A stretch of 64,000 nt of DNA from Burkholderia sp. 9120 (GTDB lineage: Bacteria > Pseudomonadota > Gammaproteobacteria > Burkholderiales > Burkholderiaceae). Location of the stretch: the NCBI RefSeq assembly GCF_000745015.1, contig NZ_JQNA01000002.1, positions 3,906,001-3,970,000 on the forward strand. Reading direction: 5' to 3'. Positions 5,449 through 64,000 of the stretch are shown here, piece by piece. The position numbers were made by a program, and so were the translations under genes. A model generated the notes under the pieces. It saw only the letters and a list, made by a program, of their open reading frames with translations, had not been told where the DNA came from and searched no databases. Within the stretch, counting starts at the first letter, position 1, and the number at the start of each line of letters is the position of its first letter.

Positions 5449-6594
5449 TTGCTCAATCTCACGCCGGGTTCACTCGCGGGACTTCGCGTTATCGATCTGT
5501 CACGCGTGCTGGGCGGTCCGTACTGCACGCAGATCCTCGCTGACCACGGCGCCGAGGTGATCAAGGTCGAGCCGCCCGACGGCGACGAAACGCGCACCTG
5601 GGGGCCGCCGTTCGAAGGCGACACGGCGTCGTATTTCATCGGCGTGAATCGCAACAAGCTGGGCGTGGCGCTCGATCTGCGCCAGCCCGCCGAGCGCGAC
5701 AAGCTGCTGCACTTACTCGAAACCGCCGACGTGCTGGTCGAGAACTTCAAGATCGGCACGCTGGAGCGCTGGGGGCTCGGCTACGAGACGTTGCGCGCGC
5801 GCTTTCCGCGGCTCGTGCATTGCCGGGTGTCCGGTTTTGGCGCCGATGGTCCGCTCGGCGCGTTGCCGGGCTACGACGCGGCGGTCCAGGCGCTGACCGG
5901 TCTGATGAGCGTGAACGGCGAGGCGGGCGGCGCGCCGTTGCGCGTCGGCGTGCCGATCGTCGATCTCGTCACCGGCCTGAATGCGGCGCTCGGCATCCTG
6001 ATGGCGTTGCGTGAGCGCGAGACGAGCGGGCAGGGCCAGTTCGTCGAGTCGACGCTGTTCGACAGCGCGTTGTCGATCCTGCATCCGCATACGCCGAACT
6101 GGTTCTACTCGGGCCAGGAGCCGCAGCGCACCGGTAACGCGCATCCGAACATCACGCCGTACGACATGTTCCATACGGGTAGCGTCGATATCTTTCTGGC
6201 GGTGGGCAATAACGCGCAATTCGCGGGACTGTGCGCGGTGATCGATGCGCAGGCGCTGGTCGACGATCCGCGTTTTGCCAGCAACCGCGAGCGCAGTGCG
6301 CACCGGCGTGAATTGCGCGCGGAGCTGGAGCAGCGCTTCGCGTCGTGGCAAGGGGAATTGCTCGCCGATACGCTGATCCGGCGCGGCGTGCCGTGCGCGC
6401 CGGTGCTCGGACTCGGCGCGGCGCTGGAGCATCCGCACACCGCGCATCGGGCGATGCGGGTGGAGCTCGGCTCGTACCGTGGCATTGCGTCGCCGATCAA
6501 GCTGAGCCGCACGCCGGCCACTTATCGCAGCACGCCGCCCGGGTTGAACGAACACGCTGAGCAGGTGTTCGGCAAACCGCACGCCGACGATTGA
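5449..6594 (+). CDS. CaiB/BaiF family CoA-transferase
   Basis: 381 aa. Class III CoA-transferase signatures: GLRVIDLSRVLGGPY at the N-terminus, ADHGAEVIKVEPP, and the catalytic Asp in PGYDAAVQA (about residue 143). The family moves CoA between carboxylic acids, usually from succinyl-CoA or acetyl-CoA to a new acid. TTG 5449 was chosen as start because CAGGAGAC lies just upstream and the protein then begins in the normal place; an ATG at 5377 in frame lacks this site and adds 24 unrelated residues. Followed by a CitMHS transporter, an acyl-CoA dehydrogenase and an IclR regulator in the same direction, so it probably activates an imported acid. The substrate is not evident. Confidence 0.9.
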   Translation: MLNLTPGSLAGLRVIDLSRVLGGPYCTQILADHGAEVIKVEPPDGDETRTWGPPFEGDTASYFIGVNRNKLGVALDLRQPAERDKLLHLLETADVLVENFKIGTLERWGLGYETLRARFPRLVHCRVSGFGADGPLGALPGYDAAVQALTGLMSVNGEAGGAPLRVGVPIVDLVTGLNAALGILMALRERETSGQGQFVESTLFDSALSILHPHTPNWFYSGQEPQRTGNAHPNITPYDMFHTGSVDIFLAVGNNAQFAGLCAVIDAQALVDDPRFASNRERSAHRRELRAELEQRFASWQGELLADTLIRRGVPCAPVLGLGAALEHPHTAHRAMRVELGSYRGIASPIKLSRTPATYRSTPPGLNEHAEQVFGKPHADD

Positions 6595-6703
6595 GGTCGC
6601 CACTTCATTCGCGTTTCGCTTTACCCGCGCTTCACCCGCGCTTCATCTGAAGCCATTCCCGTCGAAACCATAAAGAGCGGCCGCGTGCCGCCAAGGAGAC
6701 AGC

Positions 6704-6814
6704 ATGTGCACGAATCGCGCAGGACGGCGCTCGCCGCCGGCTTTTAACGCTTCCTCGATTGCGCCGACTGCGAGCGCGTTCCGTGCGCGAGGAGCCGCGT
6801 CATGCTCGCGCTGA
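6704..6814 (+). CDS. Possible 36-residue leader peptide upstream of the CitMHS transporter
   Basis: An ATG at 6704 (MCTNRAGRRSPPAF...) sits behind a strong AAGGAGAC site and runs for 36 codons in a different frame, ending 13 bases inside the transporter gene. Such an arrangement could couple or attenuate transporter translation. It is Ser/Ala/Arg-rich with no membrane segment. No homologue is known to me, and chance remains a real alternative. Confidence 0.35.
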   Translation: MCTNRAGRRSPPAFNASSIAPTASAFRARGAASCSR

Positions 6815-8103
6815 TCGGCACCGTCGCGATCGTCGCGCTGTTCGGCCTGATCATCACGAAGCGCCTGTCGCCGCTCGTCGCGTTGATCGTCGTGCCGATC
6901 GTGGCGGCGCTCGCGGCAGGCTTCGGGCTCTCGACCGCCAAATACATCGTGCACGGCGTGCAGAACATCGGGCCGGTGGCCGGCATGTTCGTGTTCGCGA
7001 TTCTGTTTTTCGGGATCCTGACCGATGCCGGCATGCTCGATCCGATCATCAACGGCGTGTTGCGGGTGGTCGGCTGTCACCCCACGCGGATCGTGATGGG
7101 CTCCGCGTTGCTTGCGCTGCTGATTCACCTCGACGGTTCCGGCGCGGTGACGTTTCTCGTCACGCTGCCCGCGATGCTGCCGCTCTACACGCGCCTCGGC
7201 ATCGATAAACGGATTCTGGCCTGCGTCGCGTCGATGGCGGCGGGCGTGAATTTTCTGCCCTGGGTCGGGCCGATGCTGCGCGCGTCCGCCGCCTTGCATA
7301 TTCCCGGCACGGCGATTTTTTATCCGATGCTGCCGGTGCAGATCGTCGGGCTGGTGTTCGTATTCGGCAGCGCGTACTGGCTCGGCAAACGCGAGGAAAA
7401 GCGCCTCGGGCTCGACCGCGCGAGCGCTGCAGCGGTGGCGGTAACGCCGCGTGAACTGAGCGCCGAAGAGCAGGTGTTGCGCCGGCCGGGCCGCTTCTGG
7501 ATCAACCTCGCACTGACACTGTTCGTGCTGGTCACGCTGGTGTCGGGCATTGTCGATCCGATGGTGATGTTCATGCTCGGCACGGTAGCCGCACTGATCA
7601 TCAATTATCCGGACGTCAAGCAACAGCGCGAGCGCATCGACGCCCACGCCAAAGCTGCGCTGATGATGGCCAGCGTGCTGCTCGCGGCGGGCGCGTTCAC
7701 CGGCATCATGTCCGGCACCGGCATGCTCACCGCGATGGCGCAGGTGCTCGTGCAACAGGTGCCGGTCGAACACGCGCGCCATATGCCGTTCGTGCTCGGG
7801 CTCGTGTCGATGCCGCTCAGCCTGCTATTCGATCCCGACTCGTTCTATTTCGGCATCCTGCCGGTGCTCGCCGAGAGCGGCAAGCTGCTCGGCGTGCCGC
7901 CCGTGCAGATGGCGCAGGCCGCCTTGCTCGGACAGATGACCACCGGTTTCCCGGTCAGTCCGCTCACGCCGGCCACGTTTCTGATTGTCGGCCTGACCGG
8001 CGTCGAACTCGCCGAACATCAGAAATTCACCATTCCCTTTCTCTTCGCCGCCACGGTCATCATGGTGTTCACCGCGGTGCTGGTCGGCGTGTTTCCGCTC
8101 TGA
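6802..8103 (+). CDS. CitMHS-family organic acid transporter
   Basis: 433 aa with about 11-12 membrane helices, resembling the citrate-metal:H+ symporter family (CitMHS). Visible features are GLIITKRLSPLVALIVVPI at the N-terminus, FFGILTDAGMLDPI, HLDGSGAVTF and the late LTPATFLIVGL segment. ATG 6802 follows GAGGAG. Members import citrate, or related di- and tricarboxylates, often as metal complexes. The neighbouring CoA-transferase and acyl-CoA dehydrogenase suggest the imported acid is turned into a CoA thioester and oxidised; citrate itself would not need that route, so another acid is likely. Confidence 0.85.
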   Translation: MLALIGTVAIVALFGLIITKRLSPLVALIVVPIVAALAAGFGLSTAKYIVHGVQNIGPVAGMFVFAILFFGILTDAGMLDPIINGVLRVVGCHPTRIVMGSALLALLIHLDGSGAVTFLVTLPAMLPLYTRLGIDKRILACVASMAAGVNFLPWVGPMLRASAALHIPGTAIFYPMLPVQIVGLVFVFGSAYWLGKREEKRLGLDRASAAAVAVTPRELSAEEQVLRRPGRFWINLALTLFVLVTLVSGIVDPMVMFMLGTVAALIINYPDVKQQRERIDAHAKAALMMASVLLAAGAFTGIMSGTGMLTAMAQVLVQQVPVEHARHMPFVLGLVSMPLSLLFDPDSFYFGILPVLAESGKLLGVPPVQMAQAALLGQMTTGFPVSPLTPATFLIVGLTGVELAEHQKFTIPFLFAATVIMVFTAVLVGVFPL

Positions 8104-8154
8104 GCCGGCTGCTCGAAGGGCGGCGGCTTAAAGGGTTTTACCAAGGACGTTGAT

Positions 8155-9321
8155 ATGAATTTCGATCTCACCGAAGACCAGCTCTCGATCCAGGCCGCGA
8201 TCGAAAAGCTCTGCGAAAAATACGATGACGAGTACTGGCTCGCGCGCGATCGCGACGGCGGCTTTCCGCACGACTTTCATCGCACGCTGGCCGACGCGGG
8301 CTGGCTCGGCATTGCGATGTCGCCGGACTACGGCGGCTCGGGCCTCGGCATGACCGAAGCGGCGCTGATGATGCGCACCATCAGCGGCTCGGGCGCGGGG
8401 TTGTCGGGGGCGTCGGCGGTGCATATGAATATCTTCGGCTTGAACCCCGTGCAGGTATTCGGCAACGACGCGCAGAAGCGCCGCTTCCTGCCGCCGCTGA
8501 TCGACGGCCGCGACAAGGCCTGCTTCGCGGTCACCGAACCGGACGCTGGTCTCGACACCACGCATCTGAAAACCCAGGCCGTGCGCGACGGCGACCACTA
8601 CGTGCTGACCGGCCGCAAGATCTGGATCTCGACCGCGCAGGTGGCGAGCAAGATGCTGATCATCGCGCGCACTACGCCATTGGAGCAGTGCGCGAAACCG
8701 ACCGACGGCCTCACGCTGTTCTATACGGATCTGGATCGCGAGCGCGTGGAAGTGCGCGAGATCGAGAAGATGGGCCGCAAGGCGGTCGATTCGAACATGC
8801 TGTTCATCGACAATCTGCGGGTGCCGGTTGAAGACCGTATCGGCGACGAAGGCGCGGGCTTTCGCTATCTGTTGCACGGCCTGAACCCGGAGCGGATTCT
8901 GATCGCCGCCGAAGCGATCGGCCTCGGTCAGGCGGCACTGAAGCGCGCCACGCAATATGCGAAGGAGCGCGTGGTGTTCGGACGGCCGATCGGCCAGAAC
9001 CAGGGCATTCAGCATCCGCTCGCGCAGGCATGGATGCAACTCGAAGCGGCCAATCTGATGGTGTTCAAGGCGGCCGCGTTGTACGACGCCGGTCAGCCGT
9101 GCGGCGCAGAAGCCAACGCCGCCAAATACCTCGCCGCCGAAGCCGCGTTCCAGTCGTGTCAGACGGCGATCGCCACGCTCGGCGGGATGGGTTACGCGAA
9201 GGAATATCACGTCGAACGCTATCTGCGGGAGTGTATGATTCCGAGGCTCGCGCCCGTGAGTCCGCAGATGATTCTGTGTTTCATCGCGGAGAAAGTCCTG
9301 GGCCTGCCGAAGTCGTATTGA
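8155..9321 (+). CDS. Acyl-CoA dehydrogenase, isovaleryl/long-chain-like catalytic Glu position
   Basis: 388 aa, standard length. Signatures are FAVTEPDAG in the FAD/acyl region, a middle beta domain, and the C-terminal helix GGMGYAKEYHVERYLRE. The usual catalytic Glu of the YEGT motif is missing: the aligned stretch is RLAPVSPQ with Pro367. A Glu at 246 in GLNPERIL matches the alternative catalytic position used by isovaleryl-CoA and long-chain acyl-CoA dehydrogenases. It should introduce a C2-C3 double bond into an acyl-CoA, passing electrons to ETF. It lies 51 bp after the transporter gene and probably shares its operon. Confidence 0.9.
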   Translation: MNFDLTEDQLSIQAAIEKLCEKYDDEYWLARDRDGGFPHDFHRTLADAGWLGIAMSPDYGGSGLGMTEAALMMRTISGSGAGLSGASAVHMNIFGLNPVQVFGNDAQKRRFLPPLIDGRDKACFAVTEPDAGLDTTHLKTQAVRDGDHYVLTGRKIWISTAQVASKMLIIARTTPLEQCAKPTDGLTLFYTDLDRERVEVREIEKMGRKAVDSNMLFIDNLRVPVEDRIGDEGAGFRYLLHGLNPERILIAAEAIGLGQAALKRATQYAKERVVFGRPIGQNQGIQHPLAQAWMQLEAANLMVFKAAALYDAGQPCGAEANAAKYLAAEAAFQSCQTAIATLGGMGYAKEYHVERYLRECMIPRLAPVSPQMILCFIAEKVLGLPKSY

Positions 9322-60194: not shown

Positions 60195-60779
60195 ATGACC
60201 AAGGCGATCGTAACGGCGCAGGGTAGAACTGCCGTCCATAGAAACACGCGTAGCAGCGCGCACATCGGTGCGCGCTGGGCGAGTGGCCTGATGTTCGCGC
60301 TGGCCGGGTTCGGCGCGCATGCGCAACCGGCGTCGGCGCCATCCGCGCCATTGGCACCTTTAACGCTCGACGTGACGGGCAAGATCGGCAAGACTACCGA
60401 TGCTGCGCACCGCGTGTATCACTTCACGGAGGCGCAACTGCTCGCGCTGCCGGTCCACTCGATCACCACCGCCACCACATGGACGCCGCGCTCCACCTTC
60501 ACAGGACCGCTGCTGGCGGATATTCTGAAGGCGGTCGGCGCGACCGGCAGCGAGGTCGAGATCCATACGCTCGACGACTACACCTACAGCGTGCCGGTGT
60601 CCGACTGCGATCGCTACGGCGTGGTCGTTGCATACAGCATGAACGGCCGGCGCCTGAAGATCAGCGACTTCGGGCCGCTGTTTCTCATCTATCCGCGCGA
60701 TGCGTTTCCCGATGAACTCACGGGCGCCTCGGGCGATTCGAAATTCGTATGGCAGATCAAGGCACTCATCGTCAAATAG
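60195..60779 (+). CDS. Periplasmic molybdopterin-domain-like protein lacking the Mo-ligand Cys (PruR-like)
   Basis: 194 aa with a signal peptide (hydrophobic part 30-42, cleavage after GAHA). It matches the sulfite-oxidase-type molybdopterin domain: LTLDVTGKI, FTEAQLLALP, FTGPLLADILKAVGA, YSVPVSDCDRYGVVVAYSMNGRRL and the RDAFPDE end. In true enzymes the Cys ligand sits in RCVEAW-type sequence; here it reads TTATTW (91-96), so a Mo centre is unlikely. Such proteins, for example PruR of Agrobacterium (from memory), bind pterins and control a membrane sensor. The next gene, a hybrid kinase, overlaps its 3' end by 31 bases, suggesting it is that partner. Confidence 0.8.
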   Translation: MTKAIVTAQGRTAVHRNTRSSAHIGARWASGLMFALAGFGAHAQPASAPSAPLAPLTLDVTGKIGKTTDAAHRVYHFTEAQLLALPVHSITTATTWTPRSTFTGPLLADILKAVGATGSEVEIHTLDDYTYSVPVSDCDRYGVVVAYSMNGRRLKISDFGPLFLIYPRDAFPDELTGASGDSKFVWQIKALIVK

Positions 60780-62611
60780 TGCGCCGTCCGTGGCGCCGTG
60801 TTCTTTACGTGCTGATCTGGCTAACCGCGCTCGCGGCGCCGGCCGGCGCGATCGGCTACCTGCTGTATGCGAACCTGCTGAACCCGCGCACCACCGAGCA
60901 ATTGACCGGCACGTACGACGGTTTCTACTGGGACGCCGCGCAACTGCAAATCGCTTACGCGCGTTTCGAGAATCAGTTGCTGCTGTATCAATCGGGTGTC
61001 GACGACGACTATCAGCGGCTGGTGCTGCGCTATGAGTTGCTGCAATCGAAGCTGCACGTGATGGCCGGTTCGACGCGCCGCCTGACCACGCAACTGACGC
61101 TGCTGCAACGCCAGCTCGACGAAATCAGATCGCTCGACCATGTGCTCGCCGACTTTCAGCCTGAAGTCGAGGCGTTGCAGACAGACCGCACTCAAGCCAA
61201 TCAGATCGTCGCCGAATTGCGCGAGCATTGGAACGAGGTCAACGATCTCGCGCTGAGCCGCCGCTTCGCCGACGTCGCCGATCGCGAAGCGATGAACCGC
61301 GATTTCATCGACAAACGCCGCATGCTGTTCGCCGGTGGGATGTTGCTGCTGTTGCTGTCGGCGGCCGCGACGCTGTTGCTGGTGCTCAACGGCCGGCGCC
61401 GCACGCGTCTGATGCATCAGCAGCATGCGGCGCTCGAGGCCGAACACCAGGCGAGCCGCGCGGCGCGCGAGGCGAGTCTCGCCAAAGACGCGTTCCTCGG
61501 CATGATCAGCCACGAACTGCGCACGCCGTTGCATGCGATCGTTTCCTCGATCGAACTGCTGGGCTTCAACTATCACTCCGAGGCCGACCGCAAGGTGATC
61601 CAGCGGCTCGAAACCGCGGGACGGCATCTCGAAGCGCAGATGAAAGACCTCACCGACTACGCGCGCCTGGGCGCCGGCAAGCTCGAATTGCGGCATGAGC
61701 ATTTCGAGCCGCGCGAGCTGCTGGCGTCGATTATCGACGAGCATGCCATGTCGGCCGAGGCGCGCGGCCTGCGGCTCGAAAGCGAGGTGAGCGGCATGAG
61801 CGGTCTGGTCGATTCCGATCCGCACCGGATCCGCCAGATCGTCAACAACCTGGTCACCAACGCGATCCGCTATACCGAGACCGGCACCGTGCGGGTGCAA
61901 TTGAAGCGGCGGCCCGCGGTGCTGATTTTCGTTGTCAGCGATACCGGGCCGGGCGTGCCGCATGCGCAGATTCCGCTGATCTTCCAGGAGTTCACGCAAC
62001 TGGACGGCTCGCGCACGCGTCGCTTTGAAGGGGCGGGCATGGGGCTGACCATCGTGCAGGGGCTGGTGAAACTGTTCGGCGGCACCGTCGACGTGGCGAG
62101 CACGGTCGGCGAGGGCACCACCTTCACCGTGACGATTCCGGTCGCGGCGGTGGCCGTGGCCGGGCCGCCGGGCGTGCCGGCGCACACCGAGCCGGGCGGC
62201 GCGCGCCCCTGCGTGCTGATCGTCGACGACAATCGGCTGATCCGCGAATCGCTCAGCGAAATGGTCGCGCATATGGAGTTCGACGCGCACGCGGTCGGCA
62301 ACGCCGACGCCGCGCTCGCCTGGCTCGACGCGCGCCGCTGCGACGTGGTGCTACTCGATCTGCATATGCCGGAGCGCGACGGCTACACGTTTCTGGCGGA
62401 CTTCGCCGGGAGGAACGGGCCGTCGTCGGGCGTGCCGGTGATCGTGGTCAGCGCGTATGCGCCGGAGCCGGAAGCAACAGGAAAAGCCGGAGACGAAACA
62501 GAGAGAGAAGCCGGCGCGCAGCCGTTCTTCGAAGCGTTATTAAAGCCGGTACATTACGAAGATCTGCGCAACGCGTTGCAGCGTGCGTTGGCGTCGCGGC
62601 ATACGGTGTAA
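60749..62611 (+). CDS. Hybrid sensor histidine kinase, partner of the molybdopterin-like protein
   Basis: 620 aa. Membrane helix 1 at about 18-42, a periplasmic mainly helical region (43-190), helix 2 at about 192-214. HisKA H255 in FLGMISHELRTPLH, N-box VNNLVTNAIRYT, G1 DTGPGVP, G2 GAGMGLTIV, then a receiver with D537 in VVLLDLHMP. It overlaps the upstream gene, so the pair is translationally coupled; the periplasmic domain may read the pterin-like protein. It faces the BetR-REC gene at 62701-63555, a likely phosphorelay target. Confidence 0.93.
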   Translation: MADQGTHRQIVRRPWRRVLYVLIWLTALAAPAGAIGYLLYANLLNPRTTEQLTGTYDGFYWDAAQLQIAYARFENQLLLYQSGVDDDYQRLVLRYELLQSKLHVMAGSTRRLTTQLTLLQRQLDEIRSLDHVLADFQPEVEALQTDRTQANQIVAELREHWNEVNDLALSRRFADVADREAMNRDFIDKRRMLFAGGMLLLLLSAAATLLLVLNGRRRTRLMHQQHAALEAEHQASRAAREASLAKDAFLGMISHELRTPLHAIVSSIELLGFNYHSEADRKVIQRLETAGRHLEAQMKDLTDYARLGAGKLELRHEHFEPRELLASIIDEHAMSAEARGLRLESEVSGMSGLVDSDPHRIRQIVNNLVTNAIRYTETGTVRVQLKRRPAVLIFVVSDTGPGVPHAQIPLIFQEFTQLDGSRTRRFEGAGMGLTIVQGLVKLFGGTVDVASTVGEGTTFTVTIPVAAVAVAGPPGVPAHTEPGGARPCVLIVDDNRLIRESLSEMVAHMEFDAHAVGNADAALAWLDARRCDVVLLDLHMPERDGYTFLADFAGRNGPSSGVPVIVVSAYAPEPEATGKAGDETEREAGAQPFFEALLKPVHYEDLRNALQRALASRHTV

Positions 62612-62700
62612 AGCGGCGCTGCCGGCGCGCGAAGTAGAGATGGGCTCAACCTGAGCACGCACCTTCAGCCCGCTGGCGGCGCGTTCGGCGCTACGGGCGG

Positions 62701-63555
62701 TTACGGACGATTAAGCCGCTTGGAGAGGTCGGCGACCAGGATCGCCATGCGCGCGGGCTTTTCGTAGCACGCGACGTCGTAATTGCGGATCACCTGGCTG
62801 ATCTCCGATTCGCTGGCCTTGCCGGTCAGCAGCTCGCCGGTCAGCACGAAGATCGGCGCGTCCGGATTTTCCGACGCGCGTATCGCGCGAATCGCCGCCG
62901 CCGAAGTCTGCGAGCCGAACAGCCAGTCGATCACCACGCCGTCGAACACCTGCGTTTGCAGTTGCTCGGTGAAGGCCGCGAGTCCGTAGATCGCAACCGC
63001 CGTGAAGCCGCTACGCTCCAGATAGTCGCGCAGGTTGTCGGCGCTGGCCTGATCGTCGTCGACCACCGCGATGGCCGGTTTGTCGGTTTCGGCGCGGCGC
63101 GGATAGATCTCGATCTTGTGGACTTCGTACGCGCTTTGATACAGCGTGCCGTCGTGCCGCGCTACGCGCCATTGGCCGAGCCGCGAATAGGCGACGAATT
63201 CCGGCCGGCTGCCCGCTTCGAGCGCGGCGCCCACCCAGGCGGTGCACGCCAGTTCGATCGCGCCGATGCTGAAGATGGCTTCCTGGGCGATCGCGCCGAC
63301 CATGCCCGGATCGAGCGATTGCGCGCCGAACAGTTGCGCGGCCGGTTCGCCGTATACCTCGGCGACTTTCTTGATCTGCGACAAGGTCCAGGGACTGTTG
63401 CCGCGCAGCTTGCGGTGCCCCTGGGAAAAACTCAGATCGAGAATCCGGCATAGCTCCGTGGTTTGCTGGCGCTTGCCGATTCCGTGACGGCTCATCAACT
63501 CGCGCACGCGCTCGGCGACTGCGATGGAGTCAGGTGAGTGTGTTTCGTTGGCCAT
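62701..63555 (-). CDS. BetR-domain DNA-binding protein with C-terminal receiver domain
   Basis: 284 aa. The N-terminal BetR-type helix-turn-helix (AVAERVRELMSRHGIGKRQQ, LDLSFSQGHRKLRG, PWTLSQIKKVAEVYGEP) is followed by a middle region (90-155) and a receiver domain (160-280) with D210 in VVIDWLFG. Having the DNA-binding domain before the receiver is opposite to most regulators. ATG 63555 is the first Met before the HTH. It faces the hybrid kinase at 60749-62611, a probable partner. A long hairpin lies 59 bp upstream of its start. Confidence 0.85.
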   Translation of the reverse strand: MANETHSPDSIAVAERVRELMSRHGIGKRQQTTELCRILDLSFSQGHRKLRGNSPWTLSQIKKVAEVYGEPAAQLFGAQSLDPGMVGAIAQEAIFSIGAIELACTAWVGAALEAGSRPEFVAYSRLGQWRVARHDGTLYQSAYEVHKIEIYPRRAETDKPAIAVVDDDQASADNLRDYLERSGFTAVAIYGLAAFTEQLQTQVFDGVVIDWLFGSQTSAAAIRAIRASENPDAPIFVLTGELLTGKASESEISQVIRNYDVACYEKPARMAILVADLSKRLNRP

Positions 63556-64000
63556 ACTGCGTGAGAATCCCCGTCTTGAAGGGTGCTGTGGAGTGCGGCC
63601 CGACAGGTGCAAGGGGCCCATGCACATTCAGTGTGCATGGGCCCGTCCACTTGAGGGACAGCAAATGTACCGTAAAAAGTTTCGCGGTCTGTGTTTTTGT
63701 GTGGCCGCCACCAGGTCCGTCTTTGCGCGAGTCGAAACGGATCGGTACAACGGCTTTTTATGCAATTTGAATCAAGTTCATTTTACCGATTAAACCGTTC
63801 CGCATCCTTAGAGAAATAACTCGGATACCTCTTTTGCCGCGGCATTGGCGTGATCTGAATGTGATAGGCGGGACAAAACTCGCGTGGCGGCATCTGGTGT
63901 GCCAGCACAGGGCACGCCCGCCACTTCGCGCCAATTTATGCCAACTCGCGCCGCACGGACAGCGTCCCACTTATTTATGTCGCCGACATTTTCTCGAGCT
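63556..64000. other. Non-coding region at the window end
   Basis: Contains the palindrome at 63614-63644 and an AT-richer stretch at 63660-63840 that probably holds the BetR-REC promoter. A 70-codon minus-strand frame at 63758-63970 shows no ribosome site or motif and was not called. Confidence 0.45.
63614..63644. promoter_or_regulatory. Perfect 13-bp inverted repeat upstream of the BetR-REC gene
   Basis: GGGCCCATGCACA / TGTGCATGGGCCC with a five-base loop, 59 bp upstream of the ATG. It is long enough to act as an RNA hairpin in the leader or as an operator for a dimeric regulator. No T-run follows on either strand. Confidence 0.65.

Follow-up and report, generated by a model that had tools for sequence, protein, structure and literature searches.

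What might a sulfite-oxidase-type protein do once it has lost the cysteine that binds molybdenum, and to which regulator might it report? The question is raised by three genes at positions 60195-63627 of a 64,000-nucleotide stretch (contig positions 3,906,001-3,970,000) of the genome of the soil bacterium Burkholderia sp. 9120 (8.46 Mb, two contigs); the whole of this stretch we call the window. These genes encode a PF00174 protein of the pterin-binding PruR type, a hybrid histidine kinase and, on the opposite strand, a regulator combining a BetR domain with a receiver (BetR-REC). The three genes are a conserved, co-inherited set. We consider it likely that they form a two-component system that responds to pterins and has a transcription factor of its own, the window carrying a chromosomal form. 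Such a system would be a variant of a pairing of PruR with a kinase that is already in print as 'PruR-DTB' (PMC13259868, section 8).

The PruR-type protein and its kinase

The first gene (60195..60779, plus strand) encodes a protein of 194 amino acids that matches PF00174 (Oxidored_molyb) with 34.9 bits (cut-off 24), and no NCBIfam model for it was found at E 0.1. A sequence search of the PDB at E <= 1 returned eight matches, the best four of which (E 1e-19 to 1.1e-12, within residues 50-193) carry the names 'Pterin Binding Protein' (7rkb, 7kos/7kou), 'Oxidored_molyb domain-containing protein' (7kom) and 'Putative Pterin Binding Protein' (7kp2), with putative sulfite oxidases ranking below them at E ~0.1. 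Among these structures, 7KOS is the PruR protein of A. tumefaciens and 7KP2 that of V. cholerae (PMC13259868). Some orthologues of the window protein also bear the NCBI name 'putative pterin-binding protein' (e.g. P0002, P0026).

An earlier, sequence-only reading of the window had proposed that the molybdenum ligand is lost from this protein, and alignment with the genome's own SUOX-type proteins bore this out. The SITTATTW of the window protein aligns with their RLRCVEGW and RHICIEGW, so that Thr92 stands opposite the ligand Cys, with Trp96 kept (Thr92-Trp96, 60468..60482, plus strand). An active molybdo-enzyme was rejected on this ground. A working molybdenum oxidoreductase, for which one could cite the PF00174 match over its cut-off, is extremely improbable in view of this substitution, of the sole Cys of the protein (C138) lying outside the ligand column, and of the solved relatives, which likewise have no Cys there.

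The pterin site of A. tumefaciens PruR includes Tyr104 and Trp160 (PMC13259868). Through the 7kos row of the alignment these residues were matched to Tyr129 (TLDDY; 60579..60581, plus strand) and to Trp186 (60750..60752, plus strand), the latter taken as the counterpart of Trp160 and invariant in two alignments. The N-terminus, read by eye, has a hydrophobic stretch with an AHA end, suggesting that residues ~1-43 are probably a signal peptide and that the protein is exported. Judged from these sequence features, the protein, its molybdenum site lost, probably senses pterins outside the cell. A lone PruR-like protein is encoded elsewhere in the same genome (L007:1204-1800; G000:C2:5113886), with no regulator gene in the stretch read.

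The second gene (60749..62611, plus strand) encodes a hybrid histidine kinase of 620 amino acids, in which Pfam, alignment and a structure model together delineate a transmembrane segment, a periplasmic helical domain, a second transmembrane segment, and HisKA (His255), HATPase and receiver (Asp537) domains. Pfam matched HisKA, HATPase_c and Response_reg and gave no HPt match, and the best NCBIfam model was TorS, below its cut-off. His255, Asp537 and Lys599 are invariant in a 15-row alignment of close relatives. The 31-base overlap with the pruR gene that had been read from the sequence (60749..60779, plus strand) is exact by the open reading frame coordinates. Scanning named genomes yielded 71 related loci, labelled Paraburkholderia, Caballeronia or Burkholderia only, and tblastn alignment found the same overlap in 68 of them; in the remaining three the two ends were not both alignable. 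In three of the 68 (L067, L070 and L071) the kinase frame hits a stop after 8 codons, and the kinase start must therefore be later there.

Between the membrane segments, residues ~44-190 (60878..61318, plus strand; bounds estimated from the structure model) are predicted to form a periplasmic sensor domain. The model (predicted local distance difference test, pLDDT, 70; predicted template-modelling score, pTM, 0.34; pLDDT 67-87 in 10-residue blocks over residues 61-170) places helices at residues 58-82, 88-110, 116-142 and from 149 on, so that the domain is predicted to be helical. A sequence search with the kinase N-terminus gave 25 matches, all weak (E 0.04 or worse).

The BetR-REC regulator as probable third partner

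The third gene (62701..63555, minus strand) encodes BetR-REC, 284 amino acids long from a likely start at 63555, in a frame that opens at 63627. This start, which the sequence-only reading had used, is likely because most of the close homologues listed are 284 amino acids long. The opposite-strand BetR-REC assignment made in that reading also stands, with 181.2 bits for BetR (PF08667) and 33.9 bits for Response_reg (PF00072). In the 289-residue numbering from 63570 that we use for this protein, Asp215 (the phosphoacceptor), Trp216, Thr244, Lys271 and Cys109 are invariant among 16 diverse members, and the acidic pair D171 and D172 is nearly so. In the structure model (pLDDT 82, pTM 0.48) a helical domain at the N-terminus (13-81) is followed by a domain of five strands (94-154) and by the receiver. 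The N-terminal, helix-turn-helix (HTH)-like domain would be the one to bind DNA; the relatives L107 and L109 give a weak Cro/C1-type HTH match, below cut-off. Cys109 (window 63244-63246) lies in the middle, five-strand domain and could be structural, metal-binding or redox-active.

No second full-length match to BetR occurs in the window genome; two other frames (182 amino acids) match about half of the BetR model with 26-28 bits, just above the 21.6 cut-off. Fold searches with BetR-REC and the kinase returned, among the matches listed, almost only receivers and kinase cores, and when the BetR-REC profile was run against solved sequences the best 60 of 109 matches covered the receiver part. 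Against 50,697 phage records BetR-REC had no match at E 1e-5.

A survey of gene neighbourhoods, which the sequence-only reading had put forward as a check, found the PruR-kinase pair conserved as neighbours, the reverse of an outcome that this reading had said would refute it, and accompanied by BetR-REC in unrelated settings. Within the 71 loci a convergent BetR-REC neighbour is present in 68, with a median gap of 76 bases between matched gene ends; the exceptions are two loci whose contigs end first (L059, L076) and one symbiont metagenome-assembled genome (L078). Across the 68 loci that have BetR-REC, median identity to the window proteins is 75% for PruR, 85% for the kinase and 93% for BetR-REC, and the conservation of the trio is well beyond chance. 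The helicase upstream is also conserved across most of the 71 loci, and synteny alone would therefore not prove partnership.

More widely, BetR-REC proved rare. Strong matches occur in 4 of the 398 genomes of a phylum sample (five copies, one family), a fifth genome having a weak, receiver-only match; an order-level sample gave 4/399. PruR-like genes are present in 65 of the same 398 genomes, and each of the four genomes with strong BetR-REC matches has a PruR match ~2 kb or less from a BetR-REC copy.

We then searched 72,556 plasmid records separately with PruR and with BetR-REC, obtaining matches in 646 and 470 records, respectively. The counts by host agree for Klebsiella (265 and 262), Escherichia (57 and 57) and Shigella (15 and 15); among the genera named, Pseudosulfitobacter (62 records) was found by the PruR search only. 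Reading of 24 hand-picked regions from these searches, some of them near-copies (L087/L097; L096/L111; L092/L104/L105/L106), revealed the full trio in 20, in Enterobacterales, Burkholderiales and Rhizobium hosts. Regions fetched via PruR contained it in 12 of 15 cases, the others being those of Labrenzia, Agrobacterium pusense and Aminobacter, and regions fetched via BetR-REC in 8 of 9, the exception being B. arboris L093. In each of the 18 annotated trios the HTH protein alongside proved homologous to BetR-REC, matching the window protein with an E value no higher than 8.2e-20; two trios without annotation, from Rhizobium CB3171 (L095) and Caballeronia (L158), were read by tblastn. Gene order varies between BetR-REC, a fourth gene, PruR and kinase in line (seven Enterobacterales regions) and BetR-REC convergent with the PruR-kinase pair (the other eleven annotated regions). 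The Aminobacter region holds a PruR-DcpA (EAL) pair (L113:5288-5659 and 5878-8836), with a divergent 6-carboxytetrahydropterin synthase gene adjoining it, a further case of a pterin gene beside a PruR set.

The phylogeny of PruR follows the presence of the regulator. In a 51-row tree, whose root is not fixed and whose sampling is weighted to sets already found, all 25 BetR-linked rows fall on one side of a single branch (support 100/98). BetR linkage requires one change on this tree compared with a mean of 17.2 after shuffling, with none of 500 shuffles as low; the 'no BetR-REC' label of 23 rows comes from a scan that scored at most six candidates per genome. The window PruR nests in a 19-row set of plasmid and chromosomal rows (support 98/96).

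Proposed signal flow, rival explanations and known systems

In the system that we envisage, PruR would be exported and would bind a pterin, probably a reduced one, in its truncated sulfite-oxidase pocket, as its homologues suggest. By analogy with the PruR-DcpA pair of A. tumefaciens, loaded PruR would dock on the kinase's helical domain in the periplasm, shifting the kinase/phosphatase balance of the enzyme. Phosphate would then move from His255 of the kinase to BetR-REC Asp215; this transfer could be direct, or the receiver of the kinase could take part in it as a brake or a way-station. BetR-REC would in turn bind DNA with its helical N-terminal domain, perhaps close to the promoter of its own gene. 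Both kinase and BetR-REC retain their phosphotransfer residues in the alignments. Direct transfer is favoured because two plasmid kinases (L094 and L107) have no receiver by Pfam and retain BetR-REC beside them. As a further likeness to PruR-DcpA, the window genome encodes a PRK09134 reductase above the curated cut-off, a family that we take to be that of PruA.

Several observations weigh against this reading. Near the pocket the window protein has SDFGP where the solved relatives have RDKGP (Arg in 4/4, Lys in 3/4), with Ser and Phe in the two places, and it has an Asp where A. tumefaciens PruR has Asn102, a feature shared with the PruR 'groups C and D' that the review distinguishes (PMC13259868). 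One could take these deviations, and the true ligand being unsettled even for A. tumefaciens PruR (PMC13259868), as signs of a periplasmic protein that senses a ligand other than free pterin or serves as an unliganded co-receptor; we regard this as unlikely, given that across the BetR-linked class Trp186 is invariant and the Tyr129 position is Tyr or Phe, and that one plasmid set includes a gene with a pteridine-reductase motif. That gene (L090:9314-10096, Pandoraea plasmid pPO70-2) encodes an SDR protein and lies inside a PruR-kinase-BetR-REC set next to virB-type genes. It matches PRK09134 and PRK09135 ('pteridine reductase') best, though under the cut-off of either model, and its TGAAKRSG and YTVGK fit the motifs TGX3RXG and YX3K, the Arg of the former being specific to pteridine reductases (PMC13259868).

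The kinase sensor departs from the known pattern as well. The WX7E motif is a feature of DcpA and DTB sensors (PMC13259868), and in the window kinase W61 is followed by Ala69 in place of the Glu. For calibration we drew 30 loci from a search for PruR across the phylum, 27 of them with a readable partner and 3 without, and counted a pattern match anywhere in residues 26-130; the motif occurs in 19 of the 23 readable partners without BetR-REC and in none of the four with it. Among 17 aligned BetR-linked plasmid kinases the Glu is found only in two Rhizobium kinases, one of them without the Trp, and the Labrenzia kinase, with no adjacent BetR-REC, also lacks it. Since the Glu is missing, the kinase is best seen as a variant of the DTB type. 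The reading first made from the sequence, of a PruR-like pterin sensor with a kinase and BetR-REC, is supported by the solved pterin-binding relatives, by the pocket Tyr and Trp and by the conserved neighbourhood, with the correction that the kinase is a variant.

Two Burkholderia-type stretches (L093:6917-7864 and L099:7231-8085) carry a BetR-REC orthologue (71%) beside the same helicase, a NERD helicase, with no PruR-kinase pair in the stretch read, so that BetR-REC may have a role independent of the pair. With convergent genes in the window that are not one operon, and with a hybrid kinase that itself carries a receiver and gave no match to HPt, these stretches could also point to BetR-REC being a mere syntenic neighbour, the kinase feeding another regulator or an HPt protein elsewhere. 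Such an explanation appears quite unlikely: BetR-REC recurs beside PruR and kinase on unrelated plasmids in several gene orders, the PruR tree splits by BetR linkage, and the two kinases without a receiver keep BetR-REC. The L093/L099 arrangement may reflect loss of the PruR-kinase pair or a second role for BetR-REC; the genome with L099 has a second full set, in line, at L100.

On plasmids, the host counts for PruR and BetR-REC disagree in Salmonella (29 and 35), Serratia (23 and 27), Rhizobium (21 and 11) and Paraburkholderia (13 and 6). The last adverse point concerns the DNA upstream of BetR-REC. A weak candidate operator, TTGATTCAAATTGCATAAAA (63756..63775, minus strand), is the only genome match to a degenerate pattern that was drawn so as to include this site. 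A palindrome, TTTTGATGC-N5-GCATCAAAA, is present with at most four mismatches in 26 of 69 upstream regions (the window included, with four mismatches) compared with 0.2 expected by mononucleotide shuffle, the regions being related and the signal weak. Of 21 further regions, from plasmids, Burkholderia-type genomes and elsewhere, the AT-rich L089 was alone in reaching four mismatches, and the scan of upstream regions indicates that the candidate operator is not common to the plasmid sets.

How does this system relate to those already described? PruR-DcpA of A. tumefaciens shares with the window a SUOX-fold protein without the molybdenum-ligand Cys, and a PruR gene just upstream of, and joined to, that of a membrane regulator with a periplasmic domain. 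The two differ in output, which is GGDEF/EAL in PruR-DcpA and a histidine kinase with a DNA-binding regulator in the window, and the window sensor, unlike DcpA, has no WX7E Glu (PMC13259868). PruR-DTB is like the window in having PruR followed by a TorS-like hybrid kinase in a two-gene unit (PMC13259868); the downstream coupled TorS/BaeS-like kinase that marks PruR-DTB is represented here by the 31-base overlap and by TorS as best NCBIfam model, below cut-off. The window class is set apart from PruR-DTB by its BetR-REC partner, the missing WX7E Glu, a separate PruR clade and a frequent position near plasmid transfer genes. In the review text available to us, 'response regulator' and 'BetR' do not occur, and kinase-linked PruR is given no response regulator (PMC13259868). 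Among the papers listed by our literature searches, which did not extend to the primary PruR-DTB paper, none was on BetR-REC together with PruR, or on a part of pterins in conjugation. The PruR-kinase pairing is known; within the same coverage we saw no published account of BetR-REC as its partner, of the separate clade or of the position near plasmid transfer genes. Where the sequence-only reading had spoken of an unusual combination, this does not hold for PruR with a kinase in place of GGDEF/EAL, which is already published.

In TorT-TorS and LuxP-LuxQ a periplasmic binding protein acts on the sensor of a hybrid kinase, as proposed here for PruR, and TorS is the closest NCBIfam model to the window kinase. 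TorT and LuxP have periplasmic-binding-protein folds, and the partners in these systems are TorR or LuxU-LuxO, not BetR-REC. Pterin signalling is already documented for the control of cyclic di-GMP; with BetR-REC as a candidate dedicated regulator, phosphotransfer and target genes become directly testable.

A possible link to plasmid transfer, and neighbouring features

By annotation, 12 of the 18 annotated trios have type IV secretion system (T4SS) or relaxosome genes no more than a few genes away. These include sets near transfer genes of the mating-pair formation (MPF) types MPF_I (L087, L097) and MPF_T (L090, L096, L111), two MPF_F sets in which the trio faces TraY/TraA and adjoins TraM (L089, L094), and five with VirB-type or mating-pair genes nearby (L088, L092, L104, L105, L106). 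In L103 the transfer genes begin ~3-4 kb from the trio, and L091, L107, L108, L109 and L114 have no annotated transfer gene within a few genes of it; the three regions without BetR-REC showed no transfer genes in the stretches read. For two enterobacterial types of the set, at least 80% of its length was found in one place in 129/139 and 211/221 matching records, and 136/139 and 218/221 of the records, respectively, are typed as conjugative.

Since related sets adjoin DNA-transfer genes on a number of plasmids, a pterin role in plasmid transfer is hinted at, and pterins may help control this process. We tentatively suggest, with a little less than even confidence, that the trio is a mobile pterin-sensing module that was repeatedly placed at the transfer operons of conjugative plasmids with unrelated transfer machines, where extracellular pterins (from neighbour cells) or the host redox state would set the timing of transfer, the Paraburkholderia chromosomal set being a relative that serves another regulon. 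If this link is true, plasmid transfer would respond to a cue of a new kind, a diffusible pterin.

The plasmid sets might instead control a surface or stress function carried along with them, represented by the fourth gene, and not conjugation. A GT9 (heptosyltransferase-like) gene does accompany the set in L089, L092, L104, L105 and L106 and, more weakly, in L088, and in five of the 18 annotated sets no transfer gene lies close by, while in a sixth (L103) such genes start only a few kilobases away. The fourth gene varies, however, between GT9-like, unnamed, GNAT and, on the Pandoraea plasmid, SDR, whereas the trio is constant, and the twelve sets close to T4SS or relaxosome genes represent MPF_I, MPF_F and MPF_T alike. 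We find this explanation less likely than not.

Two minor features of the surrounding DNA may be recorded. An inverted repeat upstream of BetR-REC (63614-63644; 31 bases with 13-base arms) was rejected as an operator, being present in 0/68 other upstream regions. Further out, a type VI secretion cluster (TssL/DotU, TssK, TssB, TssC; L098:12292-18264) begins ~6.7 kb beyond the BetR-REC gene.

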